This document shows positions 5,295-19,658 of a DNA stretch of 20,013 nt, one piece after another; position 1 is the first letter of the stretch, and each line of letters starts with the position of its first letter. The DNA comes from Gammaproteobacteria bacterium (lineage in GTDB: Bacteria > Pseudomonadota > Gammaproteobacteria > Steroidobacterales > GCA-2729495): positions 1-20,013 of the forward strand of contig JAKLLP010000006.1 in the NCBI GenBank assembly GCA_023150055.1, given 5' to 3'. The notes under the pieces are model-generated. The model worked only from the letters and a program-made list of their open reading frames with translations, did no database searches and had not been told where the DNA came from. A program made the position numbers and the translations under genes.

Positions 5295-5348
5295 CGGCGC
5301 CCGCGTACGGCGCTACTCTTGGCGCTGTCACCGACCGGGACGAACGTC

Positions 5349-6302
5349 ATGCGGGACACGGCCGTCTTTTTCTCGGGCGCCTATATCGAGCGCAACACCC
5401 TGCTGCGGCATGACCCGGCGGCCGTCGCCGCAGCGTGGGCCGCGCCGGATACGCGTTTCCTGCCGGTCTGGCAGGCGCAGCCGCTCATCCGCGATGGCGC
5501 CGCCGCCCGCCTCACGCGCGCGGAACTCGGCGCGCGGCTGCCGGAGCAGGCCGCGGCCATCTACCTCGGTGTCGAGTCCGGCCGACACCTGTTCGCCGTC
5601 GCCCTCGAGGACCGTGATGCGCCGCCCGGCCCCGGCGAGTTCGGCGGCCTGCGCGACCTGGTCAGCCGCGTCAGCGCCGCGGATGCGGGGCTCCTCGCCT
5701 ACGCCCGCGCGATGGTCACCTGGCATCGTCATCACCGGCATTGCGGCGTGTGCGGCGCGCCGACGCGGGCCGAGGATGCCGGTTTCGTGCTCGTGTGCAG
5801 CAGCACGAATTGCGGGCACCGGAGCTTCCCGCGGCTCGATCCGGCGATCATCGTGCTGGTGCACCACGACCAGCACTGCCTCCTCGGACGCCAGCCCACC
5901 TGGCCGTCCGACCGCTTCTCTACCCTGGCCGGCTTCGCCGAGCCCGGCGAGGCGCTCGAGGACGCGGTGCGGCGCGAGGTGCGCGAGGAGACCGACGTCG
6001 CCATCACCCACTGCCGTTACCGGGCGTCCCAGCCCTGGCCGTTCCCGGCATCCCTCATGATCGGGTTTCATGCCATGGCCACCCACCGCGAGATACGGCT
6101 GAACGACGGCGAACTCGCCGAAGCGCGCTGGTTTACCCGGGAAGAACTGGGTAGCGGCACGATCGTGCTGCCGCCCCGCGCTTCGGTCGCCTACCGGCTC
6201 ATCGAAGACTGGTTCGACAGCGTGCCGGGACCGGGCCTCGCGACCCTGCACCGTGACGGCGAGTTCCTGCGCCGCCCGGAGCAGCCGCCGGACGCGCGCT
6301 GA
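5349..6302 (+). CDS. nudC: NADH pyrophosphatase / NAD-cap hydrolase NudC
   Basis: The 317-residue product is a Nudix hydrolase of the NudC group, which cleaves NAD(H) and NAD-capped RNA 5' ends to NMN(H) plus AMP or 5'-monophosphate RNA. Seen: a zinc ribbon with CGVCG and, after about 16 residues, CSSTNCG; then FPRLDPAIIVLV. The Nudix box follows as GFAEPGE...RREVREETDV, and then the NudC-specific SQPWPFPASLMIGFHA. The usual Gly near the end of the Nudix box (REUxEExGU) is Asp here (EETDV). Start ATG 5349 fits family length; the frame opens at a TTG 30 bases earlier. The gene follows the FlhC-like gene by 54 bases, and its TGA shares one base with the next ATG. Confidence 0.95.
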   Translation: MRDTAVFFSGAYIERNTLLRHDPAAVAAAWAAPDTRFLPVWQAQPLIRDGAAARLTRAELGARLPEQAAAIYLGVESGRHLFAVALEDRDAPPGPGEFGGLRDLVSRVSAADAGLLAYARAMVTWHRHHRHCGVCGAPTRAEDAGFVLVCSSTNCGHRSFPRLDPAIIVLVHHDQHCLLGRQPTWPSDRFSTLAGFAEPGEALEDAVRREVREETDVAITHCRYRASQPWPFPASLMIGFHAMATHREIRLNDGELAEARWFTREELGSGTIVLPPRASVAYRLIEDWFDSVPGPGLATLHRDGEFLRRPEQPPDAR

Positions 6303-7051
6303 TGTGCCTGGTCGCCGTCGCCTGGCGGGCGCACCCGCTGTATCCGCTGATCCTCGCCGGCAACCGCGACGAATTCCACGAGCGGCCCTCGGCGCCGGCA
6401 GCCTGGTGGGAGGATGCCGGCCACGTGCTCGGCGGCCGCGATCTCGTCGCCGGCGGCAGCTGGCTCGCGGTGAGCCGCAGCGGGCGCATCGCGGTGGTCA
6501 TCAACGATCCCCGCCGGCCGCCGGGACCGGAGCGCACTGCAAGTCGCGGCGCCCTGGTGCGTGACTTCGTGGCGGGCGACACGCCGAGCGGGCGCTTCCT
6601 CGATGCCGTGTCGGTCGCCGAGCAGCGCTATGCGGGCTTTCGCCTCGTGGTGGGCAACCGCCTGCAGCTGCGCGCCTTCGTGACCTCGCACGCGGGCGCG
6701 CCACGCCGCTGGACGCTGCGGCCGGGCGTCACGGTCTTCAGCAACTCGCCGCTCGACATGCCGTGGCCCAAGGTCGCCTACCTGGAGTCGGCGTTGAGCG
6801 GGCTCGCCGCGAGCCCCGGGCTCGAGCGCCAGATGCTGTTCGCGCTGCTGGCCCGGCGCGAACCGGTCGATGGCGAGGGCGACGGGCATCCGGCGGGGCG
6901 CACGCCGTTCGTCGTCGGTGCGCGCTACGGCACGCGCGCGAGCACTGTCATCCTCATGGGGAGCGATGGCCGCTGCGCCTTCGAGGAGCGGCGCTTCGGC
7001 GCCGCGGGACAACAGACCGGCGAGACGCGGGAAGAATTTGCGCTTGGCTGA
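6302..7051 (+). CDS. TANGO2/NRDE family protein
   Basis: The 249-residue protein begins MCLVAVAW and contains LAGNRDEFHERPSAPAAWW (residues 18-36), the defining NRDE motif with its conserved N-terminal Cys2. It continues with VLGGRDLVAGGSWLAVSRSG and a later VFSNSPLDMPWPKV, as in TANGO2 homologues. The Cys2 and NTN-hydrolase-like pattern suggest an amidohydrolase fold. The physiological substrate is not settled, and eukaryotic TANGO2 has been linked to lipid/heme or acyl-CoA handling. The start overlaps the nudC stop by one base (TGATG), so the two are translationally coupled. Length is normal. Confidence 0.9.
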   Translation: MCLVAVAWRAHPLYPLILAGNRDEFHERPSAPAAWWEDAGHVLGGRDLVAGGSWLAVSRSGRIAVVINDPRRPPGPERTASRGALVRDFVAGDTPSGRFLDAVSVAEQRYAGFRLVVGNRLQLRAFVTSHAGAPRRWTLRPGVTVFSNSPLDMPWPKVAYLESALSGLAASPGLERQMLFALLARREPVDGEGDGHPAGRTPFVVGARYGTRASTVILMGSDGRCAFEERRFGAAGQQTGETREEFALG

Positions 7052-7065
7052 ACCAGGAGCGTTTC

Positions 7066-7638
7066 ATGGGCAGGACTTTCGACCTTATCGACGAGCAGAT
7101 GGCCGCCTGGATCGGCGCGCAGCGGATGTTCTTCGTCGCGACCGCGCCGCTGGCTGCCGATGGCCTCGTCAATTGCTCGCCGAAGGGTCTCGATACGCTG
7201 CGCCTGCTCTCGCCGCGCAGCATCGCCTGGCTCGATCTCGGTGGCAGCGGCATCGAGACCGTTGCGCACCTGAAAGAGAACGGCCGGATCGTCATCATGT
7301 TCTGCGCCTTCGAGGGGCCGCCGCGCATTCTGCGCCTCCACGGTCGCGGCGAAGTCATCGAACGCCGCCATCCGGAGTTCGACGGGCTGCTGGCGCGCTT
7401 CCCGCCGGCGCCCGTATGCCGCGCCATCATCCGGGTGCAGGTCACGCGCATCGCCGACTCCTGCGGCTGGGGCGTGCCGCTGTACGGCTACCAGCGCCAG
7501 CGTGACGACATCGCCCGGGCGGTGTCGGGCAAGGACGCGGAGCAACTGATTGCGCAGGCCGAACGGCAGAACAGCCGCAGCATCGACGGCCTGCCAGGGC
7601 TCGATATAGAAGCGCTCCGGCGCGGACCTGCGCGCTGA
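7066..7638 (+). CDS. Pyridoxamine 5'-phosphate oxidase-fold family protein
   Basis: The 190-residue protein has the split-barrel flavin-binding fold of the PNPOx superfamily. Typical features seen are FFVATAPLAADGLVNCSPKGLDTLRLLSP, then AWLDLGGSGIETVAHLKENGRIVIMFCAFEGPPRILRLHGRGEVI, and IIRVQVTRIADSCGWGVPLYGY. This is the subgroup of about 190-residue PPOX proteins that probably bind FMN or a related cofactor, not canonical PdxH. ATG 7066 is preceded by AGGAGC. It starts 15 bases after the TANGO2 stop and probably ends the nudC operon. Substrate unknown. Confidence 0.85.
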   Translation: MGRTFDLIDEQMAAWIGAQRMFFVATAPLAADGLVNCSPKGLDTLRLLSPRSIAWLDLGGSGIETVAHLKENGRIVIMFCAFEGPPRILRLHGRGEVIERRHPEFDGLLARFPPAPVCRAIIRVQVTRIADSCGWGVPLYGYQRQRDDIARAVSGKDAEQLIAQAERQNSRSIDGLPGLDIEALRRGPAR

Positions 7639-7962: not shown

Positions 7963-8436
7963 ATGCCGATCGCGAACGAAGCCATGCAGAAGCGCCAGCA
8001 GGCAATCCTCGCGATCCTGCGAAGCCGCCGCGTGGAGCGCCAGTCGGAGCTGGTACGCCTGCTGAAGGAGCGCGGTATCCGCGTGACCCAGTCGAGCGTC
8101 AGCCGCGACCTGCAGCAACTCGGTATCGCCAAGCTCGAGAGCGGCTATCGGCGGGTCGAACAACCGGACCCGGAAACGGACCGGGATGCGGCGTTGCTGG
8201 CCGAGTTCGTGCGCGACATCCGCGCGGCCGGCGGCAACCTGACCGTAGTGAAGACGGCCGAGGGAGCGGCGCAGCGCGTGGCGTTGTATCTCGACCGCAG
8301 CGGCTGGGCGGAGATCGTCGGCACGGTGTCCGGCGACGACACGATCTTCGTCGCCACGCGTAACGGCGGCGAGCAGAAACGATTGCTGGCACGGCTGCGC
8401 GCGCTGGTAGCGCACGCGGCACGGCCCGTTGAATAA
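7963..8436 (+). CDS. argR: Arginine repressor ArgR
   Basis: The 157-residue regulator has the winged-helix N-terminal domain of ArgR (AILRSRRVERQSELVRLLKERGIRVTQSSVSRDLQQLG, residues about 16-54). SVSRDL is the recognition helix. The C-terminal oligomerisation and arginine-binding domain shows TAEGAAQRVALYLD and GTVSGDDTIF (GDD at 124-126). ATG 7963 has GAGG 4 bases upstream, a tight spacing; ATG 7984 (MQKRQQ) is an alternative start. It is the first gene of the arginine cluster, 17 bases before argG, so it is probably co-transcribed and autoregulated. Confidence 0.95.
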   Translation: MPIANEAMQKRQQAILAILRSRRVERQSELVRLLKERGIRVTQSSVSRDLQQLGIAKLESGYRRVEQPDPETDRDAALLAEFVRDIRAAGGNLTVVKTAEGAAQRVALYLDRSGWAEIVGTVSGDDTIFVATRNGGEQKRLLARLRALVAHAARPVE

Positions 8437-8453: not shown

Positions 8454-9680
8454 ATGAACACCCAGGACAACACTTCTCCCATCATTCTCGGCTTCTCCGG
8501 CGGGCTGGATACCTCCTTCTGCGTGCCCTGGATGAAGGAGCACTACGGGCGCCCCGTGGTGACGGTCACCATCAACACCGGCGGCATCGACACGGCGGCG
8601 GCAGCCGACCTCGAGCAGCGGGCCAGAAAACTCGGTGCCGCCGAGCACCTGATGATCGAGGCACGGGACGTGTTCTTCGACCGGGTGCTCAAGTACCTCA
8701 TCTTCGGCAACGTGCGGCGCGGGCACCTCTACCCGCTGTGCGTCGGCGCCGAGCGGGGCATCCAGGCGACACTGCTCGCGGAACTGGCGAAGGAGCGCGG
8801 CAGCACGACCGTCGCTCACGGCTGCACCGCCGCGGGCAACGACCAGGTGCGTTTCGAGGTCGCGCTGCGCACCTTGAACCCAGGGCTCGAAGTGCTGGCG
8901 CCGGTGCGCGACCAGGCGTTCGTGCGCAGCGAACAGCAGAAATATCTCGAGGACGGCGGCTTCCCGGTGCCCGCGCGGGGTTCCTCCTATTCCATCAACC
9001 GGGGGCTGTGGGGCGTGACCATCGGCGGGCGCGAGACGCTCGACTCCAGGGAGTCGATCCCGGAGAGCGCCTGGGTGCTCTCCGCCAACGCCTTCGAAAA
9101 GAACCTGCCGGCGAGCCGCCACACCATCGGCTTCAGCGCCGGCGTGCCGACCGCTCTCGACGGCAAGAGCCTCGGCGCGGTCGCCCTGATCGAGGAACTC
9201 GAGCGGATCGCCGGCCCCTACGGCATCGGCCGCGGCATCCACGTCGGCGACACCGTGCTCGGCACCAAGGGCCGGGTCGCCTTCGAGGCCCCGGCCGCCG
9301 AGGTGCTGCTCGTCGCCCATCGCGAACTGGAGAAGCTCACGCTCTCCGGCCTGCAGCAGCGGGTCAAGGACCAGGTCGCCACCCAGTACGGCGACTTCGT
9401 GCACGAGGGCAAGCAGCTCGACCCCGTCTGCCGCGACATCGAAGCGCTGCTCGCCTCCGCCCAGCAGCGGGTCACCGGCGAAGTGCGGCTGGTCTTCCGG
9501 CCGGGCAGCGTGTTCGTCGAGGGCGTGGTCTCGCCGCACTCGCTGATGGCGGCGACCAGGGGCGTCTACGGCGAGAAGGCCGGTGAGTGGACGCCGGCCG
9601 ACGCGCTCGGCTACTCGCGCATCCTCGCCCTGCCCGGCATCCTGCAGACCCGGGCCGCAGCCAAGGACAAGCCCCGGTGA
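8454..9680 (+). CDS. argG: Argininosuccinate synthase
   Basis: This enzyme joins citrulline and aspartate, with ATP to AMP+PPi, in the cytoplasm. The 408-residue product has the PP-loop ILGFSGGLDTSFC (residues 11-23), TINTGG, the HGCTAAGNDQVRFE segment and YSINRGLWGVTIGG, all of the ArgG family. The length matches the shorter ArgG type. In pathways using an acyl-ornithine transcarbamylase the citrulline must first be deacylated, and no deacylase is seen here. The TGA (9678-9680) overlaps the GTG start of the next gene as GTGA, indicating coupling. Confidence 0.95.
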   Translation: MNTQDNTSPIILGFSGGLDTSFCVPWMKEHYGRPVVTVTINTGGIDTAAAADLEQRARKLGAAEHLMIEARDVFFDRVLKYLIFGNVRRGHLYPLCVGAERGIQATLLAELAKERGSTTVAHGCTAAGNDQVRFEVALRTLNPGLEVLAPVRDQAFVRSEQQKYLEDGGFPVPARGSSYSINRGLWGVTIGGRETLDSRESIPESAWVLSANAFEKNLPASRHTIGFSAGVPTALDGKSLGAVALIEELERIAGPYGIGRGIHVGDTVLGTKGRVAFEAPAAEVLLVAHRELEKLTLSGLQQRVKDQVATQYGDFVHEGKQLDPVCRDIEALLASAQQRVTGEVRLVFRPGSVFVEGVVSPHSLMAATRGVYGEKAGEWTPADALGYSRILALPGILQTRAAAKDKPR

Positions 9681-10735
9681 AGACCGTCATCGCCGACAAG
9701 ATTGGCTCGGTGGCCCAGCACGCACACCTGTCGCGCGAGCTGCGGGTGAGCGCGGACATTCCCTGCGAGGAAGGCGTGCTCATCGCGGTGGAAATCCTCA
9801 ACAACAAGGGCACTTACAACACGCTCGAGCTGACCAGCGGCCGCCAGGCGCAGGTCAAGCGCGGCGATGTGATCGTCGGGGCGCTCGGCCATCGCAAGGC
9901 ATTGTTCGGCTACTCCGGGCACCTGCCGGAGAAAGTCGTCCCGGGCGATGTGCTGCAAGTCCTCAACATGGGCGGCGTCATCGGGGTCTGCGATTCCATC
10001 AACGCGAGCTTCGGGCAGCCGTTCGAGGCGCGGGTGCTCGGCGCCGTGCTCGACTTCCCCTACCTCGGCGAGCGCATCGGCGTGCCGGCCCGGGCCGGCG
10101 CGGAGAAACTCGATGCCGGGACCGCCCTCGACGCGCAGGGCGTGCCGGTGGTCGCGCTGGCCGGCACCTGCATGAATGCCGGCAAGACCGCGGCAGCCTG
10201 CGCGATCGTGAGCCGGCTGCGCCATCTCGGTTACACGGTCGATGCCTTCAAGTCGACCGGTGTGGCGCTCCGTCGCGACATCCTCGCGATGGAGGATGCG
10301 GGTGCCCGCAAGACCATGATCTTCACCGACCTCGGCGTGGTCTGCACGACGGCCGCGAACGGCCCCGCGGTGACCCGCACCATGATGACGCGGCTGGCCG
10401 CCGGCCGGCCGGACGTGATCGTCTTCGAACTCGGCGATGGCATCCTCGGCGCCTACGGCGTCGAGGCCATCCTGCGCGCGGCGGATATCCGCGCCGCACT
10501 CTCCTGCGTCGTGCTGTCGGCCAACGACCCGGTCGCAGCCTGGGGCGGCGTGGAGCTGCTGCGCCGGGAATTCGGCATCGAGCCCGGCGTGGTCACCGGA
10601 CCTGCCACGGACAACCAGGTCGGGCGCGACATCATTGCCGAGCGCAGCGGCGTGGCGGCCATCAACGCCGTCACGGACGCGAGCGCCCTCGGCGATGCGG
10701 TGGCCCGCTCGCTCGGCCTCGCGGTGACGGCATGA
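9677..10735 (+). CDS. P-loop protein of unknown function embedded in the arginine operon (DUF1611/DgcN-like C-terminal region)
   Basis: The 352-residue protein has two parts. Residues about 1-140 form a beta-rich domain (SRELRVSADIPCEEGVLIAV, LELTSGRQAQVKRGDVIVGALG, LPEKVVPGDVLQVLNMGG). Residues about 155-352 form a P-loop domain with Walker A GTCMNAGKT (163-171), then RHLGYTVDAFKSTGVALRRD and VIVFELGDGILGAYG. The GTxxxxGK layout and following 'G...a.f.aTG' pattern recall DUF1611 proteins. One DUF1611 protein, DgcN, has been described as a D-glutamate N-acetyltransferase. MobB/BioD-type P-loop proteins are an alternative. It overlaps argG (GTGA) and argC (ATGA) by four bases each, so it is firmly part of the operon. 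A role in acylation of glutamate, or another arginine-linked ATP-dependent step, is hypothesis only. Confidence 0.8.
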   Translation: MKTVIADKIGSVAQHAHLSRELRVSADIPCEEGVLIAVEILNNKGTYNTLELTSGRQAQVKRGDVIVGALGHRKALFGYSGHLPEKVVPGDVLQVLNMGGVIGVCDSINASFGQPFEARVLGAVLDFPYLGERIGVPARAGAEKLDAGTALDAQGVPVVALAGTCMNAGKTAAACAIVSRLRHLGYTVDAFKSTGVALRRDILAMEDAGARKTMIFTDLGVVCTTAANGPAVTRTMMTRLAAGRPDVIVFELGDGILGAYGVEAILRAADIRAALSCVVLSANDPVAAWGGVELLRREFGIEPGVVTGPATDNQVGRDIIAERSGVAAINAVTDASALGDAVARSLGLAVTA

Positions 10736-11790
10736 GCGCGCGCGTCCCCACCGTCATTCTCGGCGGCAGCGGCTACGTCGCCGGCGAGCTGCTGCGCCTG
10801 GTGCTCGGCCACCCGCAGCTGCGCCTCGCCGGGATCCTCTCGGAGAGCCAGGCCGGCGGGGCGGTCGCGCACGCCTTTCCGCATCTGCGCGCAACGCTCG
10901 GCGACCTGAAATTCAGCAACCGCGCGGAGATCATGGAGCTCGTCGGGCCCGGACGGCTGGCGCTGCTCTCGGCCGCCCCGCACGGCGCCAGCGCAGGGCT
11001 CCTCGCCGGCTTCATCAGCTGGGCGCGCGAGCGCGGCACCGAGCTCACCGTGGTCGACTGCTCGGCGGACTTTCGCTTCCCGACGGCCGGCGCCTACGAA
11101 GCCGTGTACAAGCACCCGCACGGGGCGCCGGAACTGCTCGACGCCTTCGCCTGCGCCCTGCCCGAGCACCTCGCGACGACCGACCGGCCGCACATCGGCC
11201 ATCCGGGCTGCTTTGCCACCGCGATGCTGCTCGCGGCCCTGCCGCTGCTCAGGCTCGACCTGGTCGAGGACGATCTTTTCGCCTGCGGCATCACCGGCAG
11301 CACCGGCGCCGGCCGCTCGCCGATCGCCACCACCCATCACCCGGAGCGGCACGCGAATCTCTTCGCCTACCAGCCCCTCGCCCACCGCCATGCACCGGAG
11401 GTCGCCGGCATCTGCGAACAGATCACCGGCCGGCGTCCGCAGCTGCACTTCGTGCCGCAGTCGGGCCCCTTCGCGCGCGGCATCCACATGACCGTGCAGG
11501 CGCGCCTGCGCCGCGCGCTCGGCGCGGATGCCTTGCGCAATGAACTGCAGGCGTTCTACCAGGGGAGCGAATTCGTCGCGGTGGTCGACGGCATGCCGCG
11601 GCTCAAGCACGTGGTCGGCAGCAATTACTGCGAGATCGGCGTGAGCGTCGACGCGGGCAGCGTCGCCGTCATGGTGGTGGAAGACAACCTGGTCAAGGGC
11701 GCGGCCGGCGGCGCCGTGCAGTGGCTGAACCGCAAGCTCGGGCTTGCCGACCACGAGGGGCTCACCGCGACCGCGGCGGGCTGGATGTGA
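10732..11790 (+). CDS. argC: N-acyl-gamma-glutamyl-phosphate reductase
   Basis: This is the NADPH-dependent reductase for the third step of arginine synthesis. The 352-residue product has VILGGSGYVAGELLRLVLGHP (Rossmann GxxGxxG-like), then VDCSADFRF. The catalytic cysteine lies in HPGCFATA (C160), followed by GITGSTGAGRSP, the ArgC loop. The conserved His in FVPQSGPFARGIHMT and the C-terminal KGAAGGAVQWLN are also seen. Its ATG overlaps the stop of the P-loop gene (ATGA). Acetyl versus succinyl preference cannot be read from this sequence. Confidence 0.95.
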   Translation: MSARVPTVILGGSGYVAGELLRLVLGHPQLRLAGILSESQAGGAVAHAFPHLRATLGDLKFSNRAEIMELVGPGRLALLSAAPHGASAGLLAGFISWARERGTELTVVDCSADFRFPTAGAYEAVYKHPHGAPELLDAFACALPEHLATTDRPHIGHPGCFATAMLLAALPLLRLDLVEDDLFACGITGSTGAGRSPIATTHHPERHANLFAYQPLAHRHAPEVAGICEQITGRRPQLHFVPQSGPFARGIHMTVQARLRRALGADALRNELQAFYQGSEFVAVVDGMPRLKHVVGSNYCEIGVSVDAGSVAVMVVEDNLVKGAAGGAVQWLNRKLGLADHEGLTATAAGWM

Positions 11791-11795
11791 ACGCC

Positions 11796-12950
11796 ATGAG
11801 CACGCCCGATACGGCCGTGAGCCACCTGCTCGACGTGTATCCCTACCTGCCCTTCCAGCCGGTCTCCGGCGAGGGCGTCTTCCTCAGCGATGGCAAGCGG
11901 CGGGTGATCGATTTCTATGGCGGCCATGCCGTGGCCGGCCTCGGCTATGCGCACCCGGACGTGCTGCGGACGCTCGCGGAACAGGCGCGCCAGCTGTTCT
12001 TCCAGAGCAACGCGGTGGCGCTGGCAGTGCGCGAAGAGGCGGCCCGCAAGCTGGTCGCGTTTGCGCCGCCAGGCCTCGACCGCGTGTTCTTCACCAACAG
12101 CGGCGCCGAGGCGAACGAGAACGCGCTGCGTATCGCCTGCCGGCTCACGGGCCGCACGAAAATCCTCGCCATGGAGCACGGCTTCCATGGCCGCACCGCC
12201 GCGGCCGCGGCGGTGACCTGGTCGTCGTCGGGGAAATGGTACGGCTTCCCGCGCACGCCGTTCGATGTCGACTTCATTCCGCGCAACGACCCGGACGCCG
12301 CGCGGCGGATGATCGACGCATCGGTCGGGGCGGTGATCCTCGAGCCCGTGCAGGGCCAGGCGGGGGCCGTGGCGCTCGATCCGGCGGTCATCAGGGCAAT
12401 CTCCGCCGCCTGCCGCGAGCACGGGGCGCTCCTCATTGCCGACGAGATCCAGAGCGGCATGGGCCGCTGCGGCGCGCCCTTTGCCATCGAACTGGCCGGC
12501 GCCGGGGTCGAGCCCGACATGCTCACGGCCGCGAAGTCGCTCGCCGCGGGCTTCCCCTGCGGGGCCCTGCTGATGCGGGAGGCGATCGCCGGGCAACTGA
12601 AGCACGGCGATCTCGGCACCACCTTCGGCGGCGGGCCGATCGCGAGCGCGCTCATCGCCACCGTCATCGACGTCATCGAGCGCGACCGGCTGATCGACAA
12701 CGTGCGCGCGCTCTCGCGGGAGATCGTCGACGCCATGCCCCTCGGCCCGGTCGAGAGCGTGCAGGGCGCAGGTTTCCTGCTCGGGCTGCGCTGCCGGCGC
12801 AGCGCGCGGGAGATGCTCTGCGAACTGCTCGACCGGGGGATCCTCGTCGGCACCAGTGCGGATGCGCATGTGATTCGCCTGCTGCCGCCGCTCATCCTCG
12901 AGCGCAGCCACGTCCACGACCTGCTCAACGCGCTTGCCGATATCCGCTGA
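11796..12950 (+). CDS. argD: N-acylornithine aminotransferase (class III PLP enzyme)
   Basis: The product has 384 residues from ATG 11796. Fold-type I class III aminotransferase features are visible: FYGGHAVAGLGYAHP, FTNSGAEANENALRIA, the HGFHGRT motif, VILEPVQGQAG, and LIADEIQSGMGRCG. The PLP-lysine is in TAAKSLAAGFPCG (K247), followed by TTFGGGP. It converts acyl-glutamate semialdehyde to acylornithine with glutamate as amino donor. A GTG at 11787 overlapping the argC stop as GTGA is an alternative start, in line with the coupling used elsewhere in this operon. Assignment to the arginine pathway rests on both sequence and position. Confidence 0.93.
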   Translation: MSTPDTAVSHLLDVYPYLPFQPVSGEGVFLSDGKRRVIDFYGGHAVAGLGYAHPDVLRTLAEQARQLFFQSNAVALAVREEAARKLVAFAPPGLDRVFFTNSGAEANENALRIACRLTGRTKILAMEHGFHGRTAAAAAVTWSSSGKWYGFPRTPFDVDFIPRNDPDAARRMIDASVGAVILEPVQGQAGAVALDPAVIRAISAACREHGALLIADEIQSGMGRCGAPFAIELAGAGVEPDMLTAAKSLAAGFPCGALLMREAIAGQLKHGDLGTTFGGGPIASALIATVIDVIERDRLIDNVRALSREIVDAMPLGPVESVQGAGFLLGLRCRRSAREMLCELLDRGILVGTSADAHVIRLLPPLILERSHVHDLLNALADIR

Positions 12951-14017: not shown

Positions 14018-14953
14018 ATGCCGCAGAACCCACAAAACCGGGACATCGTCGTCGCAGCGCTGCGTCACGCGGCCCCCTATGTGCGCCTGTACCGGCGCAA
14101 GACCTTCGTCATCAAGGCGGGCGGCGAGGTGTTCGCCGACCAGGCCAGCACCCGGGCGCTGATCGAGCAGGTGGCGATCCTGCACCAGGTGGGCATCCGC
14201 ACGGTGCTGGTGCACGGCGGCGGGCCGCAGAACACGCGTCTTGCCGAGGCGCTCGGCGTCGAGACGCGCATCGTCGAGGGCCGGCGCGTCACCGACGAAC
14301 GCACGCTCGAGGTCGCCACCATGGTGCTCAACGGCCAGATCAACACGCAGATCGTCGCGGCCTGCCGCCAGCTCGACCTGCCGGCGATCGGCGTGAGCGG
14401 TGTCGATGTCGGCCTCATCCGCGCGCGCCGCCGGGCGCCGGTCACCGTGGCCGGTCACGCCGCGCCGGTCGATTACGGCTTCGTGGGCGACATCGAGCGC
14501 GTGGATACCGCCGTCCTCACCACCCAGCTCGAGAACGGGCTGCTGCCGGTGGTGAGCCCGCTCTCGGCGGATGCCAACGGCACGCTGCTCAACATCAACG
14601 CGGACACCGTGGCAGCGGCGCTCGCCTCGGCGCTCGGCGCCGCGAAACTGGTGCTCGCCACCAGCGCGCCCGGGATCCTCGAGGATCGCAATGATCCGGG
14701 TTCGCTCATCTCCTACGTCGATCTCGCCGGTCTCGAGAAGCTCAGGCTGACCGGCGCGCTCGCCGATGGCATGCTGCCCAAGGCGCGCGCCATCGAGGCG
14801 GCGATCCGCGGCGGGGTGGAACGGGTGCACGTGATCTCCTACAAGGTGCCCGACAGCCTGCTGCTGGAGATCTTCACCAACGAGGGCACCGGCACCCTGG
14901 TGGTGGACAACATCGCCCGGCTGTCGAAAGAGGAACAGTCACCGGCCGGGTAA
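14018..14953 (+). CDS. argB: N-acylglutamate kinase
   Basis: The 311-residue amino-acid kinase has FVIKAGGEVFAD (residues about 30-41), TVLVHGGGPQNTRLAEALGVETRIVEGRRVTDERTLE, the MVLNGQIN segment, SPLSADANGTLLNINADTVAAALA, and the C-terminal GGVERVHVISY. All are typical of ArgB, which phosphorylates the gamma-carboxyl of N-acylglutamate. The Xanthomonas homologue is a fusion with a GNAT acylglutamate synthase of about 440 residues. Here the protein ends shortly after the kinase domain, so no synthase is attached. It starts 3 bases after the transcarbamylase stop, within the operon. Confidence 0.94.
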   Translation: MPQNPQNRDIVVAALRHAAPYVRLYRRKTFVIKAGGEVFADQASTRALIEQVAILHQVGIRTVLVHGGGPQNTRLAEALGVETRIVEGRRVTDERTLEVATMVLNGQINTQIVAACRQLDLPAIGVSGVDVGLIRARRRAPVTVAGHAAPVDYGFVGDIERVDTAVLTTQLENGLLPVVSPLSADANGTLLNINADTVAAALASALGAAKLVLATSAPGILEDRNDPGSLISYVDLAGLEKLRLTGALADGMLPKARAIEAAIRGGVERVHVISYKVPDSLLLEIFTNEGTGTLVVDNIARLSKEEQSPAG

Positions 14954-15058: not shown

Positions 15059-16243
15059 ATGAGCAGACTGTGGGAAAAAGGCGAGGAACTCGACGCGCGG
15101 GTGCTGCGCTACACCGCCGGTGAAGATCACCTGCTCGACGAACGCCTCGTGCCCTACGACGTGCGGGGCTCCATCGCGCACGCGACGATGCTGCACCAGC
15201 AGAAACTGCTCGGTGACGCGGATTTCGATGCGATCTGCGCAGGCCTGGAAGCGCTCGCGGTCGGTCACGCGGCCGGCGACTGGCACATCGGCCTCGAGGA
15301 CGAGGACGTGCACACCGCGCTCGAGCGGCGCCTCGTCGAGGCGGTCGGCGAAGCCGGCAAGCGCATCCACCTCGGCCGCTCCCGCAACGACCAGCTCCTC
15401 ACGGCGCTGCGGCTGTACCTGCTCGATGCCGGGCACAACCTCGAGCGGGCCGCGCGCGGCGTGGCCGACGCACTGGCCGCGCTCGGCCAGCGCGAGGCCG
15501 ACACCGCCCTGCCGGGTTACACCCACATGCAGCAGGCCATGCCGAGCTCGGTGCACCTGTGGGCGGACGGCTTCGCGGCCGAAATCCGCGATGACGCCGA
15601 CGGCATTGCCGCCGCCCGCCGCCGCGCCGACCGGAGCCCGCTCGGCAGCGCCGCCGGCTACGGCGTTCCCGGCCTGCCGATCGACCGTGACGCCACCCGC
15701 AGGCAGCTCGGCTTCGGCAGCGTCCACGAGCCGGTGACCGCCGTGCAGATCGCCCGCGGCAAAGCCGAAGCGACGCTCGTCTTCGAGCTGACCTTGCTGA
15801 TGCAGGACCTCGGCCGGCTCGCCGCCGACCTGCTCCTCTTCTATACGCAGGAGTTTGCCTACGTGCGGCTGCCGGTGAATATGACGACCGGTTCGTCGAT
15901 CATGCCGCAGAAGCGCAACCCGGACGTGCTGGAGCTGGTGCGCGGCGCGACGGCCACGCTGCAGGGCTCGCTGCTGGAGATCCTCGCGCTCCCGGCCAAG
16001 CTGCCGTCCGGCTACCAGCGCGACCTGCAACGCATGAAGGCGCCGCTGTTCCGCGCCATCGACATCACGGCGGAGAGCTGCGCCGTGATGGGCGCGCTCA
16101 TCGACGGCCTCGAGTTCCGGCCGGAGAACATCCGGCTCGACCCCGGCATCTACGCCGCCGGCCGCGCCAACCGGCTGGTGCTCGAGGAAGGCCTGAGCTT
16201 CCGCGAGGCCTATCGGCGGGTCGCGAAAGAACTCGAAAAGTAA
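15059..16243 (+). CDS. argH: Argininosuccinate lyase (short form)
   Basis: The last step of arginine synthesis, argininosuccinate to arginine plus fumarate. The 394-residue protein of the fumarase/aspartase superfamily has DEDVHTALERRL, HLGRSRNDQLLTALRLY, LPGYTHMQQAMPSS, and the catalytic serine loop TGSSIMPQKRNPDVLEL (G278-S280). Typical ArgH is about 450-470 residues. This one stops soon after GLSFREAYRRVAKELEK, so it lacks about 60 C-terminal residues. The core active site is intact, and reading past the TAA gives no ArgH-like tail, so I read it as a short variant, not a recent frameshift. RBS CCGAGG precedes ATG 15059. Separated from argB by REP-like repeats. Confidence 0.94.
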   Translation: MSRLWEKGEELDARVLRYTAGEDHLLDERLVPYDVRGSIAHATMLHQQKLLGDADFDAICAGLEALAVGHAAGDWHIGLEDEDVHTALERRLVEAVGEAGKRIHLGRSRNDQLLTALRLYLLDAGHNLERAARGVADALAALGQREADTALPGYTHMQQAMPSSVHLWADGFAAEIRDDADGIAAARRRADRSPLGSAAGYGVPGLPIDRDATRRQLGFGSVHEPVTAVQIARGKAEATLVFELTLLMQDLGRLAADLLLFYTQEFAYVRLPVNMTTGSSIMPQKRNPDVLELVRGATATLQGSLLEILALPAKLPSGYQRDLQRMKAPLFRAIDITAESCAVMGALIDGLEFRPENIRLDPGIYAAGRANRLVLEEGLSFREAYRRVAKELEK

Positions 16244-16836: not shown

Positions 16837-18894
16837 TCAGGCTGCCCTTCGCCTGAGTCCGGCCACCAGGGCAAGGGCGGAGCCCAGCAGCAGCATCGCC
16901 GGGGGTACGGGAACGGGAGCGGAAGTCAGCACGAACGCCATCTGGCCGGAAGGCATGTCAGCAAGAAGGCCATAGCCCAAGATCGCCAGCCCATTGCTGG
17001 TCATCGCCACGGCATTGGCCAGCGAGACCCAGTCATCAAAACTCTCATCCACCAGCAAACTGAGATCATGCAAGCCATATTCCAGGGAGAACCAGAAGGC
17101 ACGATTGCCGAGCAGGGCACCGCTGCCATCGTAAGCCTCGTAGTAGCCGAGGATGTCACCCTCCTCACTGAGGTACTGGGCCAGGCTGAAGGCATAGCCG
17201 TCCAGGCGCTGCGACAGGGGATCCAGGACGACGGTCAATGTGCCGTCGTAAAGCCAGACTGTCTGGCCCAGGTCAACTCCGTTGCTCCCGTATCTTTTGG
17301 AGAAGCCGGCCACCTGCCCCGCGTTGTTCAGGTACTGCACTGCGCTGTACCGGTAGCCGTCTGTGCTCCTCGTGTGGGCGCCATCAGTCAGGCCGATGTC
17401 CGCCGTGCTGGCGCCATCGAACAGCCACGCGCTCTGGCCGAGGGCAGTTCCGCTATCGAAGCCACCGACGCTGTATCGATATGAAATGCCAGCTGCCTGT
17501 CCGGCTTCGTTGAACCGCCCTACCTCGCTGTGGCGGAATCCGTCCTGGTCCAGCGGATCAACTGTAATGCGCGTGTATTCGGCTGCGGTCAGCCCGACGT
17601 TGAGGGTGTTGCTGCCGTTATAAACCCAGGCGGTCTGCCCCAGGCTGGCACTACTTCCGGAAAAGCGGCTTGCGTAACCCGCAGCCTGCCCGGCCTCGTT
17701 GAAGAATGACACCGTGCTGACGCGGGTCCCGCTCCCTGTCGTGTGCTCGAAATCCGTCAGGCCGATATTCAGGGTGTCCGACCCGTCGTAGATCCACGAG
17801 GAGGTACCAATATAGGTACCACCAGCGCTGTAGCGGTATGCGGTACCTGCTACCTGCCCGGATTCATTCAGGAACAGTACGCTGCTATTCCGGTAGCCGT
17901 CCGTACTGCGGGTATGCTCGCTGTCCGTGAAGCCAATGTTCAGCGTGCCCGTGCCGTCGTAGAGCCACGCGGTCCGCCCGATGTCGGTGCCAGTGCCATC
18001 GTAGCGATTGGCAGACCCGGCGACCTGGCCCGCCTGGTTCAGGAACTGGGCGTCGCTGATGCGGGTTCCGTCGGTGCTCCGGGTATGTTCTGCGTCGGTC
18101 AGGCCCACGTTAAGGGTGCCCGAGCCGTCGAAAAGCCAGGCTGTGCGACCGACAAAGGCTCCACCCGCACCGTAGCGATTGGACGCTCCGGTCACCTGGC
18201 CGGCATCGTTCAGGAAGCGTGCCTTGAGGAAGCTCTCGCGGTAGCCGTCCGTGCTGCGGGTATGCTCCGCATCGGTCAGGCCTATGTTCAGCGTTGCTGT
18301 GCCGTTATAAAGCCATGCAGTACGGCCGAGGCCGCTCCCGCCCGCTGCATAGCGGTTGGCATCACCAGCCACATGGCCGGCTTCATTCATGCCCCAGATC
18401 CGGCTGAACCTGAAGCCGGTGCCAGAATTGGTGTGCTCTGCGTCGGTCAGCCCGACGTTGGTCGTCGCAGTGCCGTTATACAGCCAGGCGCTCTGGCCCA
18501 GGCTGGTATAGCCGGTTCCGTACCGTTGCGCCTCGCCTGCCACCTGCCCGGCCTGGTTGAAGTATCCGGTCAGGATCGAGCTGTTACGGTAACCGTCCAC
18601 CGCCCGGGTGTGTTCTGCGTCGATCATCCCGACGTTCACGGTCTGCGATCCGTCGTACACCCAGACTGTCTGGCCCAGGTTCAGCCCGGCACCGTAGCGG
18701 GTCGATCCGCCCACGGCCTGTCCTGATTCGTTGTAGAAGCTCCCGGCGCTCTGCCGACGACCGTCCTCCCGGGTATGTTCCGCATCGGTCATCCCGATGG
18801 CGCGAACGCTAAACGTGACCGGGGCGCTCACGCTGGCTGGGGGAATGAGAATGAGCAAAGCCAGGATGGCCAGAGGAGAAGTGCAATGAGTCAC
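16837..18894 (-). CDS. Secreted tandem-repeat protein with PEP/VPxPA-CTERM-like anchor
   Basis: The 685-residue protein starts at GTG 18894, with AGGGGG 5 bases upstream. Residues 1-24 are a signal peptide (SPLAILALLILIPPASVSA). Residues about 30-590 hold nine clear repeats of about 56-67 residues, plus a degenerate tenth. The unit pattern is GLTDAEHTRSTDGYR, then FLNxAGQVAG, a RYxxGG segment, LGQTAWLYDG and T-LN(V/I). This resembles HAF-type extracellular repeats. The C-terminus has VPVPPAMLLLG, a hydrophobic helix (LLLGSALALVAGL) and RRRAA, a CTERM-type sorting signal expected to be processed by an exosortase in exopolysaccharide-producing bacteria. No exosortase is present in the window. 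The stretch 18895-19204 upstream holds no other recognisable gene. Confidence 0.85.
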   Translation of the reverse strand: MTHCTSPLAILALLILIPPASVSAPVTFSVRAIGMTDAEHTREDGRRQSAGSFYNESGQAVGGSTRYGAGLNLGQTVWVYDGSQTVNVGMIDAEHTRAVDGYRNSSILTGYFNQAGQVAGEAQRYGTGYTSLGQSAWLYNGTATTNVGLTDAEHTNSGTGFRFSRIWGMNEAGHVAGDANRYAAGGSGLGRTAWLYNGTATLNIGLTDAEHTRSTDGYRESFLKARFLNDAGQVTGASNRYGAGGAFVGRTAWLFDGSGTLNVGLTDAEHTRSTDGTRISDAQFLNQAGQVAGSANRYDGTGTDIGRTAWLYDGTGTLNIGFTDSEHTRSTDGYRNSSVLFLNESGQVAGTAYRYSAGGTYIGTSSWIYDGSDTLNIGLTDFEHTTGSGTRVSTVSFFNEAGQAAGYASRFSGSSASLGQTAWVYNGSNTLNVGLTAAEYTRITVDPLDQDGFRHSEVGRFNEAGQAAGISYRYSVGGFDSGTALGQSAWLFDGASTADIGLTDGAHTRSTDGYRYSAVQYLNNAGQVAGFSKRYGSNGVDLGQTVWLYDGTLTVVLDPLSQRLDGYAFSLAQYLSEEGDILGYYEAYDGSGALLGNRAFWFSLEYGLHDLSLLVDESFDDWVSLANAVAMTSNGLAILGYGLLADMPSGQMAFVLTSAPVPVPPAMLLLGSALALVAGLRRRAA

Positions 18895-19204: not shown

Positions 19205-19519
19205 GTGCATTTGATCATCGACAACTACGCCACCCACAAGCCCCCGAAGGTCACAACCTGGATGGCTCATCGTGCGCGCTTTCATGTGCACTTCACACCG
19301 ACGTGTGCCTCCTGGCTCAACCTGGTCGAGCGCTGGTTCGGCATCATCACGGAGCACGCTATCCGCGACGGTTCGTTCGCGAACGTGAAAACGCTCGTCA
19401 AGCGCATCGCTCAGTTCGTCGACCTCTACAATGCCCCCTCACGGCCTTTCGTATGGACCGCCACCGCCGATTCAATCCTCGCAAAGGTCGAACGACTTGC
19501 TCTACCCATCTCCGGGACA
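19205..19519 (+). pseudogene. 5'-truncated IS630-family transposase
   Basis: From 19205 the frame reads HLIIDNYATHKPPK, HFTPTCASWLNLVERWFGIITEHAIRDGSF and FVWTATADSILAKVERL. This is the C-terminal half of an IS630/Tc1-mariner DDE transposase. The second catalytic Asp (LIIDN) and the Glu (NLVERWF) are present with 35 residues between them. The N-terminal DNA-binding region and first Asp are missing. A TAA lies four codons upstream in frame, and the sequence before that is not transposase-like. The frame runs on past 19519 into unrelated sequence. A dead remnant that marks past insertion next to the repeat-protein gene. Confidence 0.85.
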
Positions 19520-19658
19520 CGACCGGCATGCCTCACCCACGCCTGCTCGGCCAGCCAGCGGCGCAACCCGGGGACGGGCCGAGTCCTACCCGCCGATTGC
19601 CGCGGCGACCCCGCAACTGGGCGAAAAACCAAAATTAAGGCCCCCGCCGGGCGTCCCG

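Follow-up and report, generated by a model that had tools for sequence, protein, structure and literature searches.

The stretch of gammaproteobacterial DNA analysed here (the window: 20,013 nucleotides of contig JAKLLP010000006.1, Steroidobacterales) contains an arginine operon that encloses a gene, here called X, for a P-loop protein. We argue that X catalyses the first committed step of arginine synthesis, its product most likely being N-succinyl-L-glutamate; to this assignment, drawn from sequence comparison, we give a probability of roughly 0.6. Its computed basis comprises the linkage of X to arginine genes, the absence of ArgA and ArgJ, the signature residues of the operon's carbamoyltransferase, the predicted fold of X and the conservation of its residues; from these we infer the activity of X, its substrates, its use of ATP and every catalytic role discussed below. 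The evidence is comparative, and the genomes are mostly metagenome-assembled (MAGs). No published description of X was found in the literature searched, which mostly lay outside subscription papers.

An arginine operon with one uncharacterised gene

The window (contig C484) belongs to a genome of 2.65 Mb that is split into 517 contigs and is 73% complete. It carries, on a single strand, argR, argG, X, argC, argD, a carbamoyltransferase gene, argB and argH, in this order (Table 1). As an earlier note on this DNA had claimed, X overlaps each of its neighbours by 4 bp: its GTG start codon sits in the stop of argG (GTGA, 9677-9680), and its TGA stop lies within the ATGA that opens argC (10732-10735). 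The G+C content at third codon positions is 0.90 for X, 0.93 for argG and 0.92 for argC. No family of Pfam or NCBIfam gives a match to X above cut-off, which bears out the note's view that it is no known arginine gene; it is the operon's one uncharacterised gene.

A protein search with X retrieved relatives at E <= 0.001, distant ones included, for 7203 of the 8000 scored candidates, and the three protein searches taken together gave 7203, 4805 and 5349 matches among about 8000 scored candidates, in sets that may overlap. The named-genome collection contains 524 relatives, of which the best 80 loci were kept, including those of the isolates Povalibacter uvarum, Peristeroidobacter agariperforans and Steroidobacter gossypii; five loci from a class sample (L094-L098) bring the total to 85, or 84 distinct ones, since L039 and L097, each on a 947,273-base contig, are probably one locus. 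In 83 of these 85 loci, X has argG and argC as its closest detected arginine genes, one on either side. Given this linkage and the conservation of the protein, X is unlikely to be a chance open reading frame (ORF). With start codons guessed by script, the argG-X overlap is present in 32 of the 79 loci where it could be measured, and the X-argC overlap in 57 of 78. The linkage extends to Natronospira proteinivora (P0242, locus L095), in which X is 49% identical and the order is argD, carbamoyltransferase, argB, argH, argG, X, with argC about 570 bases further.

Within the window's own family, X was matched in 38 of 40 genomes (one match being a fragment). Among 232 genomes of the class sample, the own one included, 20 match X, namely, 7 with orthologues at identities of at least 46% (own included) and 13 with relatives at 28-35%. 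The 80 orthologous sequences group in a single clade (support 0.96), separate from 41 sampled relatives; one orthologue (P0267) is found in a Holophagaceae MAG. The 28-35% relatives occupy other neighbourhoods, and no arginine gene was matched in L099-L107. An ABC-transporter-like ORF adjoins the relative in seven loci (L091, L099-L103 and L107; profile-checked in L091 only) and an M20-type ORF in four (L088-L090 and L106; profile-checked in L088 and L089), and neither was seen in L085, L086, L087, L104 and L105. Specifically, relatives about 30-35% identical to X lie by ABC-transporter-like and hydrolase-like ORFs at L091:5888-7018, L099:6394-7476 and L101:6690-7748; a hydrolase-like ORF is the only such neighbour at L085:6430-7608; and an M20 peptidase-type ORF is next to the relative at L088:5446-8294, L089:5896-8415, L090:2988-6397 and L106:6399-9246, with a moaB-like ORF (judged by eye) also beside it in L088-L090.

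The missing first step

Which enzyme acylates glutamate in these organisms? The search for argA and argJ covered 44 genomes, of which 30 came from the family of 40 (the ten left out being mostly less complete ones), 6 were carriers of orthologues in the class sample, 3 were isolates and 5, for comparison, had a distant relative only. The first 39 of these comprise 38 X-carriers and one genome, G031, that lacks X. Full-length ArgA, taken as TIGR01890 above cut-off (amino-acid-kinase plus GNAT domains), was found in none of the 39 and in all five comparison genomes, and the same holds for ArgJ (PF01960); hence, none of the 38 X-carriers has either enzyme in the survey that the earlier note had suggested. 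Of the 232 genomes of the class sample, 159 have ArgA above the cut-off, and the 7 X-carriers are not among them; both ArgA and X are missing from 66 genomes, ArgJ being outside this count. X itself has no amino-acid-kinase, GNAT or PF01960 match in Pfam. No acylglutamate synthase was recognised in the window, just as the note had said, and the window's own genome shows neither full-length ArgA nor ArgJ, which means little alone because this genome is only 73% complete.

PF00583 gave 2, 5, 7 and 11 GNAT matches in four X-carriers, and the only GNAT common to all four is RimI-like (named by eye). One of the two GNATs of G012 is this RimI-like protein; the other has no orthologue among the matches in the remaining three genomes. 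In the own genome, the hit on contig C22 looks by eye like a small GNAT, presumably of the ArsN2 kind, near what we take to be an MIP channel gene. A GNAT-like gene lies past argH at L003:14760-15293, L005:14715-15245 and L007:14675-15247, followed by a polA-like ORF in L003 and L005; as a hidden synthase, such a post-argH gene was rejected, being absent, by eye, from L001, L004, L006, the other loci read and the window. Taken together, the ArgA, ArgJ and GNAT results indicate that no known enzyme that was tested for acylates glutamate in X-carriers. The note's proposal that X supplies this acylation gains from the absence of ArgA and ArgJ in 38 carriers and from the linkage to argG in distant lineages, with the amendment that the acyl group is probably succinyl rather than acetyl.

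The acyl group

The NCBIfam name for the operon's carbamoyltransferase is N-acetylornithine carbamoyltransferase (337 bits, cut-off 288). According to a review (PMC4581275), Glu92, Asn185 and Lys302 mark the acetyl enzyme, and the succinyl enzyme has A/S/P/V/Q, P and V/I/E at these positions; the first of the three is likewise used for discrimination in the GapMind paper (PMC7311316). The window's enzyme has A, P and A. Position 92 is Ala in 75, Pro in 2 and Val in 1 of the 78 loci that cover it (seven of 85 do not), all succinyl-type; all 77 loci that cover position 185 have Pro there, again succinyl-type; at position 302, the 76 loci show Ala (50), Val (23) or Glu (3) and never Lys. In G048, G172 and G258, members of a single family that lack X, the same enzyme type has E, N and K. 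Because positions 92 and 185 match the published N-succinylornithine type and position 302 never has the acetyl-type Lys, the operons with X probably run on succinylated intermediates, the counts not being independent events since the loci are related. Two further carbamoyltransferases were recorded: one in G162 (L190, contig C153), 68% identical to that of the window and at a contig edge, and one in G173 (L191, contig C5), 31% identical, in a genome that also has X and the operon's own copy of the enzyme.

Motifs and predicted fold of X

The GTxxxxGK P-loop pointed out in the earlier note is present as GTCMNAGKT. Across 80 sequences, G163, C165, M166, G169, K170 and T171 are invariant, and K170, T171, K192 and E251 are invariant across 121; E251 is likely to be the Mg/nucleotide acid. 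The predicted structure (predicted local distance difference test score, pLDDT, of 95) consists of a beta-rich N-terminal part and a P-loop domain, with no helix of four or more residues ahead of residue 170; modelled alone, the N-terminal part reached a pLDDT of 62 and found no confident fold match. In structure comparison, the P-loop domain is equally similar to CTP synthase (17-21% identity), to dethiobiotin synthetase (BioD; about 15%) and to DUF1611/DgcN proteins, whose structures 2g0t, 2obn and 7xrj share its fold. A Walker A ending in GKT/S, a second lysine past beta 2 and a conserved acid, the three features of BioD/CTP synthase-like ligases, are all present in X, which differs from BioD and from the synthetase domain of CTP synthase, both ATP-dependent ligases, in its extra N-terminal part and in its pathway. 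Searches of PDB sequences with X, with a relative and with the family profile returned nothing below E = 0.05.

Removal of the acyl group

In a route of this kind, the acyl tag must be removed from citrulline. Of the 12 X-carriers searched with PF01546, G012 (98% complete) yields a single M20 match; G020 and G022, each assembled as one contig, yield two (the second inside a frame of about 1140 residues), and the remaining carriers 2 to 6. Eight M20 proteins were scanned further. Those of G020, G012, G022 and G129 and one of the two from G070 are DapE (PRK13009, 427-544 bits, cut-off 284), the other protein of G070 is an amidohydrolase, and G268 and G014 have ArgE homologues (PRK05111, 520 and 456 bits, cut-off 460; both above the TIGR01892 cut-off). 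A Xanthomonas-type ArgE (NF006439) was rejected as the deacylase: none of 26 genomes (25 X-carriers and G260) exceeds its cut-off, the best match reaching 158 of 345 bits, and several of the better ones (121-158 bits) trace to genomes, G268 and G014 among them, with the other type of ArgE homologue. Thus, a dedicated ArgE-type deacylase seems to be missing in several carriers, which would leave two pathway steps to be filled. As DapE removes succinyl groups from succinyl-diaminopimelate, it is, by analogy, a natural candidate for the desuccinylase where ArgE is absent.

Proposed pathway and mechanism

In the proposed pathway, X would convert glutamate to succinylglutamate, which ArgB, ArgC and ArgD would take to succinylornithine; the operon's carbamoyltransferase would yield succinylcitrulline, DapE (or ArgE where present) would release citrulline, and ArgG and ArgH would complete the synthesis. 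Given this role, an ATP-dependent ligase mechanism appears, by analogy with BioD and CTP synthase, somewhat the better choice; for role and mechanism combined, it is a tentative proposal. MgATP would be held by K170 and T171 of the Walker A motif together with the acidic D201, D207 and E251, and would phosphorylate succinate with the assistance of K192; the amino group of glutamate would then attack the succinyl phosphate, the carboxylates being gripped by the basic residues K8, K44, R56, R73 and R133 of the N-terminal part. In a more speculative extension, X would start a CoA-free arginine pathway as a succinate:L-glutamate ligase: DapE, shared with lysine synthesis, would free succinate from succinylcitrulline, and X would ligate it again, so that the protecting group is recycled at one ATP per arginine.

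Several observations weigh against assigning the first step to X. The argument is largely one of elimination and neighbourhood. L047 has X between argR and argC but no detected argG, and L096 has X with argG but without argC nearby. G031, 96% complete, lacks X as well as ArgA and ArgJ. Weak GNAT-only matches to TIGR01890 (19-39 bits) occur in some carriers, a GNAT-like ORF (by eye) lies 3' of argH in 3 of 14 loci read, and GNAT candidates were sought via PF00583 and TIGR01890 only, with no search for the BT3761/Cabys_1732 family, which we take to be of GNAT type; a GNAT of a kind that escapes PF00583 may be present. As to the acyl group, the Ala at position 302 in 50 of 76 loci is outside the published V/I/E; G162 combines a succinyl-type carbamoyltransferase (A92) with ArgA and no X match, its gene possibly being on a stray contig (the congener G250 has no carbamoyltransferase match at E <= 1e-70); and the second, divergent carbamoyltransferase of the X-carrier G173 has a gap at position 92. 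DapE need not act in G268 and G014, since these have ArgE homologues. Finally, MobB matches 48 of the 80 orthologues (best 4.2e-5), as good as DUF1611, and hhalign of X against DUF1611/DgcN gave a probability of just 1.7% (8.4% for the 33%-identical relatives).

Alternative explanations

The earlier note had likened X to DUF1611 (PF07755), the family of DgcN, a D-glutamate N-acetyltransferase (EC 2.3.1.312) treated in PMC10845958 and PMC12363236; no published work pairing DUF1611 with D-glutamate was found in the literature searched. The likeness holds for the fold of the P-loop domain, which the structure search found in CTP synthase, BioD and DUF1611 alike, and is thin at the level of profiles. 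PF07755 does not match X up to E = 10, and it matches 44 of the 80 orthologues weakly (E <= 0.05, best 1.5e-4), no better than MobB does; one relative, about 33% identical (L088), exceeds its cut-off (27.7 against 25 bits). DUF1611_N is absent from the Pfam matches of X and from the nine families listed for the 80 orthologues, although UniRef labels two orthologues (P0244 and P0247, one from Natronospira) as DUF1611. The DUF1611/DgcN proteins examined have GTDxxxGK (including one GTDGAIGK pair) followed by M, R or K, and xTGQTG, with R, L or another residue at the position of K192, a pattern that the GTCMNAGKT and KSTGVAL of X do not match. By the features tested (PF07755, DUF1611_N and the motifs), X therefore fails to qualify as a DUF1611 member. 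It further differs from DgcN in the beta-rich N-terminal part of the model and in its place in an arginine operon, where L-glutamate would be the expected substrate. The same role could still be played with other chemistry, X being a DgcN-like succinyl-CoA (or acetyl-CoA):L-glutamate N-acyltransferase whose P-loop binds CoA, not ATP. This sub-case of the proposed role shares the DgcN fold; we consider it rather doubtful given the weak profile comparison, the lack of DUF1611_N and the GKT and K192 of X. Because the DUF1611/DgcN proteins examined lack this threonine and second lysine, the ligase, which the note had named as an alternative, gains weight, and we favour an ATP-dependent succinate-glutamate ligase over an acyl-CoA transferase.

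Other explanations take the first step away from X or alter it. Its weak likeness to MobB and to the SIMIBI class, to which HypB and other metallo-chaperones belong, and the neighbourhoods of the 28-35% relatives, devoid of arginine genes, would suit a protein outside the pathway that assembles or regulates the arginine enzymes in a nucleotide-dependent manner, the true synthase being an unrecognised one elsewhere. This is unlikely, in that a chaperone would not explain why X is present in genomes without a detected ArgA or ArgJ, and we know of no arginine enzyme that requires such a factor. A transacylase with N-acylcitrulline as acyl donor and glutamate as acceptor, in an ArgJ-like cycle, would fill both vacant steps at once, in keeping with the failure to find ArgA and ArgJ, with DapE as the only M20 protein of G012 and with the position of X beside argG, whose enzyme uses citrulline. 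An intact ATP-type P-loop would be superfluous for it, a pure cycle would still require a starting synthase, DapE, which acts on a succinyl amide, is present and two scanned carriers have ArgE homologues; we regard it as very improbable. Even less can be said for X as a deacylase that turns N-succinylcitrulline into citrulline, with glutamate acylated by another, unrecognised enzyme: the acetylcitrulline deacetylase gene of Xanthomonas lies near argG, as X does, but X has the P-loop fold of ATP-dependent ligases and no metal-hydrolase motif that we noticed, and DapE or ArgE is available for deacylation in the carriers scanned. The synthesis of N-succinylglutamate by X remains our preferred explanation.

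Annotated features and other genes of the window

Table 1. Features of the arginine operon and of X, in window coordinates
Feature	Coordinates	Strand	Basis
X, 352-aa P-loop protein, candidate N-succinylglutamate-forming enzyme	9677..10735	+	ORF, conservation, linkage, predicted fold
Beta-rich N-terminal part of X (approximately residues 1-152)	9677..10132	+	predicted model; beta-strands within residues 2-126
Walker A of X, GTCMNAGKT, residues 163-171	10163..10189	+	six residues invariant in 80 sequences
K192 of X	10250..10252	+	aligns with the dethiobiotin synthetase lysine 22 residues past the P-loop lysine
E251 of X, putative Mg/nucleotide acid	10427..10429	+	invariance in 121 sequences; role inferred
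argR, arginine repressor	7963..8436	+	both Pfam domains above cut-off; TIGR01529 117 bits, below cut-off 130
argG, argininosuccinate synthase	8454..9680	+	Pfam; TIGR00032 284.6 bits (cut-off 268.2)
argC, N-acylglutamyl-phosphate reductase	10732..11790	+	TIGR01850 281.6 bits (cut-off 233.6)
argD, acylornithine aminotransferase	11796..12950	+	Aminotran_3 above cut-off; argD models below cut-off
acylornithine carbamoyltransferase, succinyl-type residues	13002..14015	+	NCBIfam match; A92, P184, A301 = X. campestris 92/185/302
argB, acylglutamate kinase	14018..14953	+	Pfam, NCBIfam; amino-acid-kinase domain alone, without GNAT domain
argH, argininosuccinate lyase, 394 aa, C-terminally short	15059..16243	+	TIGR00838 293.9 bits (cut-off 279.5), 10-387 of 455

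The start of argD is ambiguous (GTG at 11787 or ATG at 11796). The tblastn matches of argH in relatives are comparable in length to the window's, so an argininosuccinate lyase with a short C terminus may be the rule among these bacteria. Upstream, at 5343-7638 (+), are tandem genes for an NADH-pyrophosphatase-like Nudix protein, a TANGO2-family protein and a PNPOx protein. Downstream, a 685-residue protein (16840-18894, -) has no Pfam match at E<=0.001 and contains repeats of the type VGLTDAEHTRSTDGYR...FLNEAGQVAG; it ends in VPVPP, a hydrophobic stretch and RRR, which we take to resemble a PEP-CTERM sorting signal. A fragment of a DDE_3 (IS630-type) transposase lies at 19205-19621 (+), close to the contig end.

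Relation to known pathways and implications

The X operon has a homologous carbamoyltransferase and most arginine genes in common with the N-acetylcitrulline pathway of Xanthomonas (AOTCase), but the X. campestris enzyme and three Xanthomonas-like ones have E92/N185/K302, unlike the X operons. The Xanthomonas lineage relies on an NAGS-kinase fusion and an M20 deacetylase, neither of which is in the X operon. With the succinylated pathway of Bacteroides (SOTCase), the X operon shares a carbamoyltransferase with succinyl-type residues, and the X-carriers are without a detected ArgA or ArgJ. In contrast to Bacteroides, the first step would fall to a P-loop protein, the hosts are Gammaproteobacteria and no desuccinylase gene was seen in the operon. 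According to PMC7311316, succinylated arginine synthesis in Bacteroidetes has BT3761 as its probable first enzyme (N-succinylglutamate synthase).

The proposed step of X is also that of ArgA, ArgJ and S-NAGS (the last probed in X-carriers via PF00583 only, in four genomes), and the earlier note's analogy with DgcN survives as a similarity of fold, the GKT threonine and second lysine of X being lacking in the DUF1611/DgcN proteins examined. The folds of ArgA, ArgJ and S-NAGS are, presumably, unrelated to that of X. At its first step, arginine synthesis offers a textbook example of one position in a pathway occupied by enzymes of unrelated kinds. If the assignment is right, a P-loop enzyme with no kinship to either the GNAT or the ArgJ type would join this set, and both a first-step enzyme of this fold and a succinylated route in Gammaproteobacteria would be new. 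The operon is seen in many uncultured and a few cultured gammaproteobacteria, and X would explain how members of this class without ArgA and ArgJ could be arginine-prototrophic. The succinylated route would extend beyond Bacteroidetes to Steroidobacter-like and Natronospira-like bacteria and to the Holophagaceae MAG with its single orthologue, and several thousand proteins, now mostly labelled hypothetical or DUF1611-like, would acquire testable functions.

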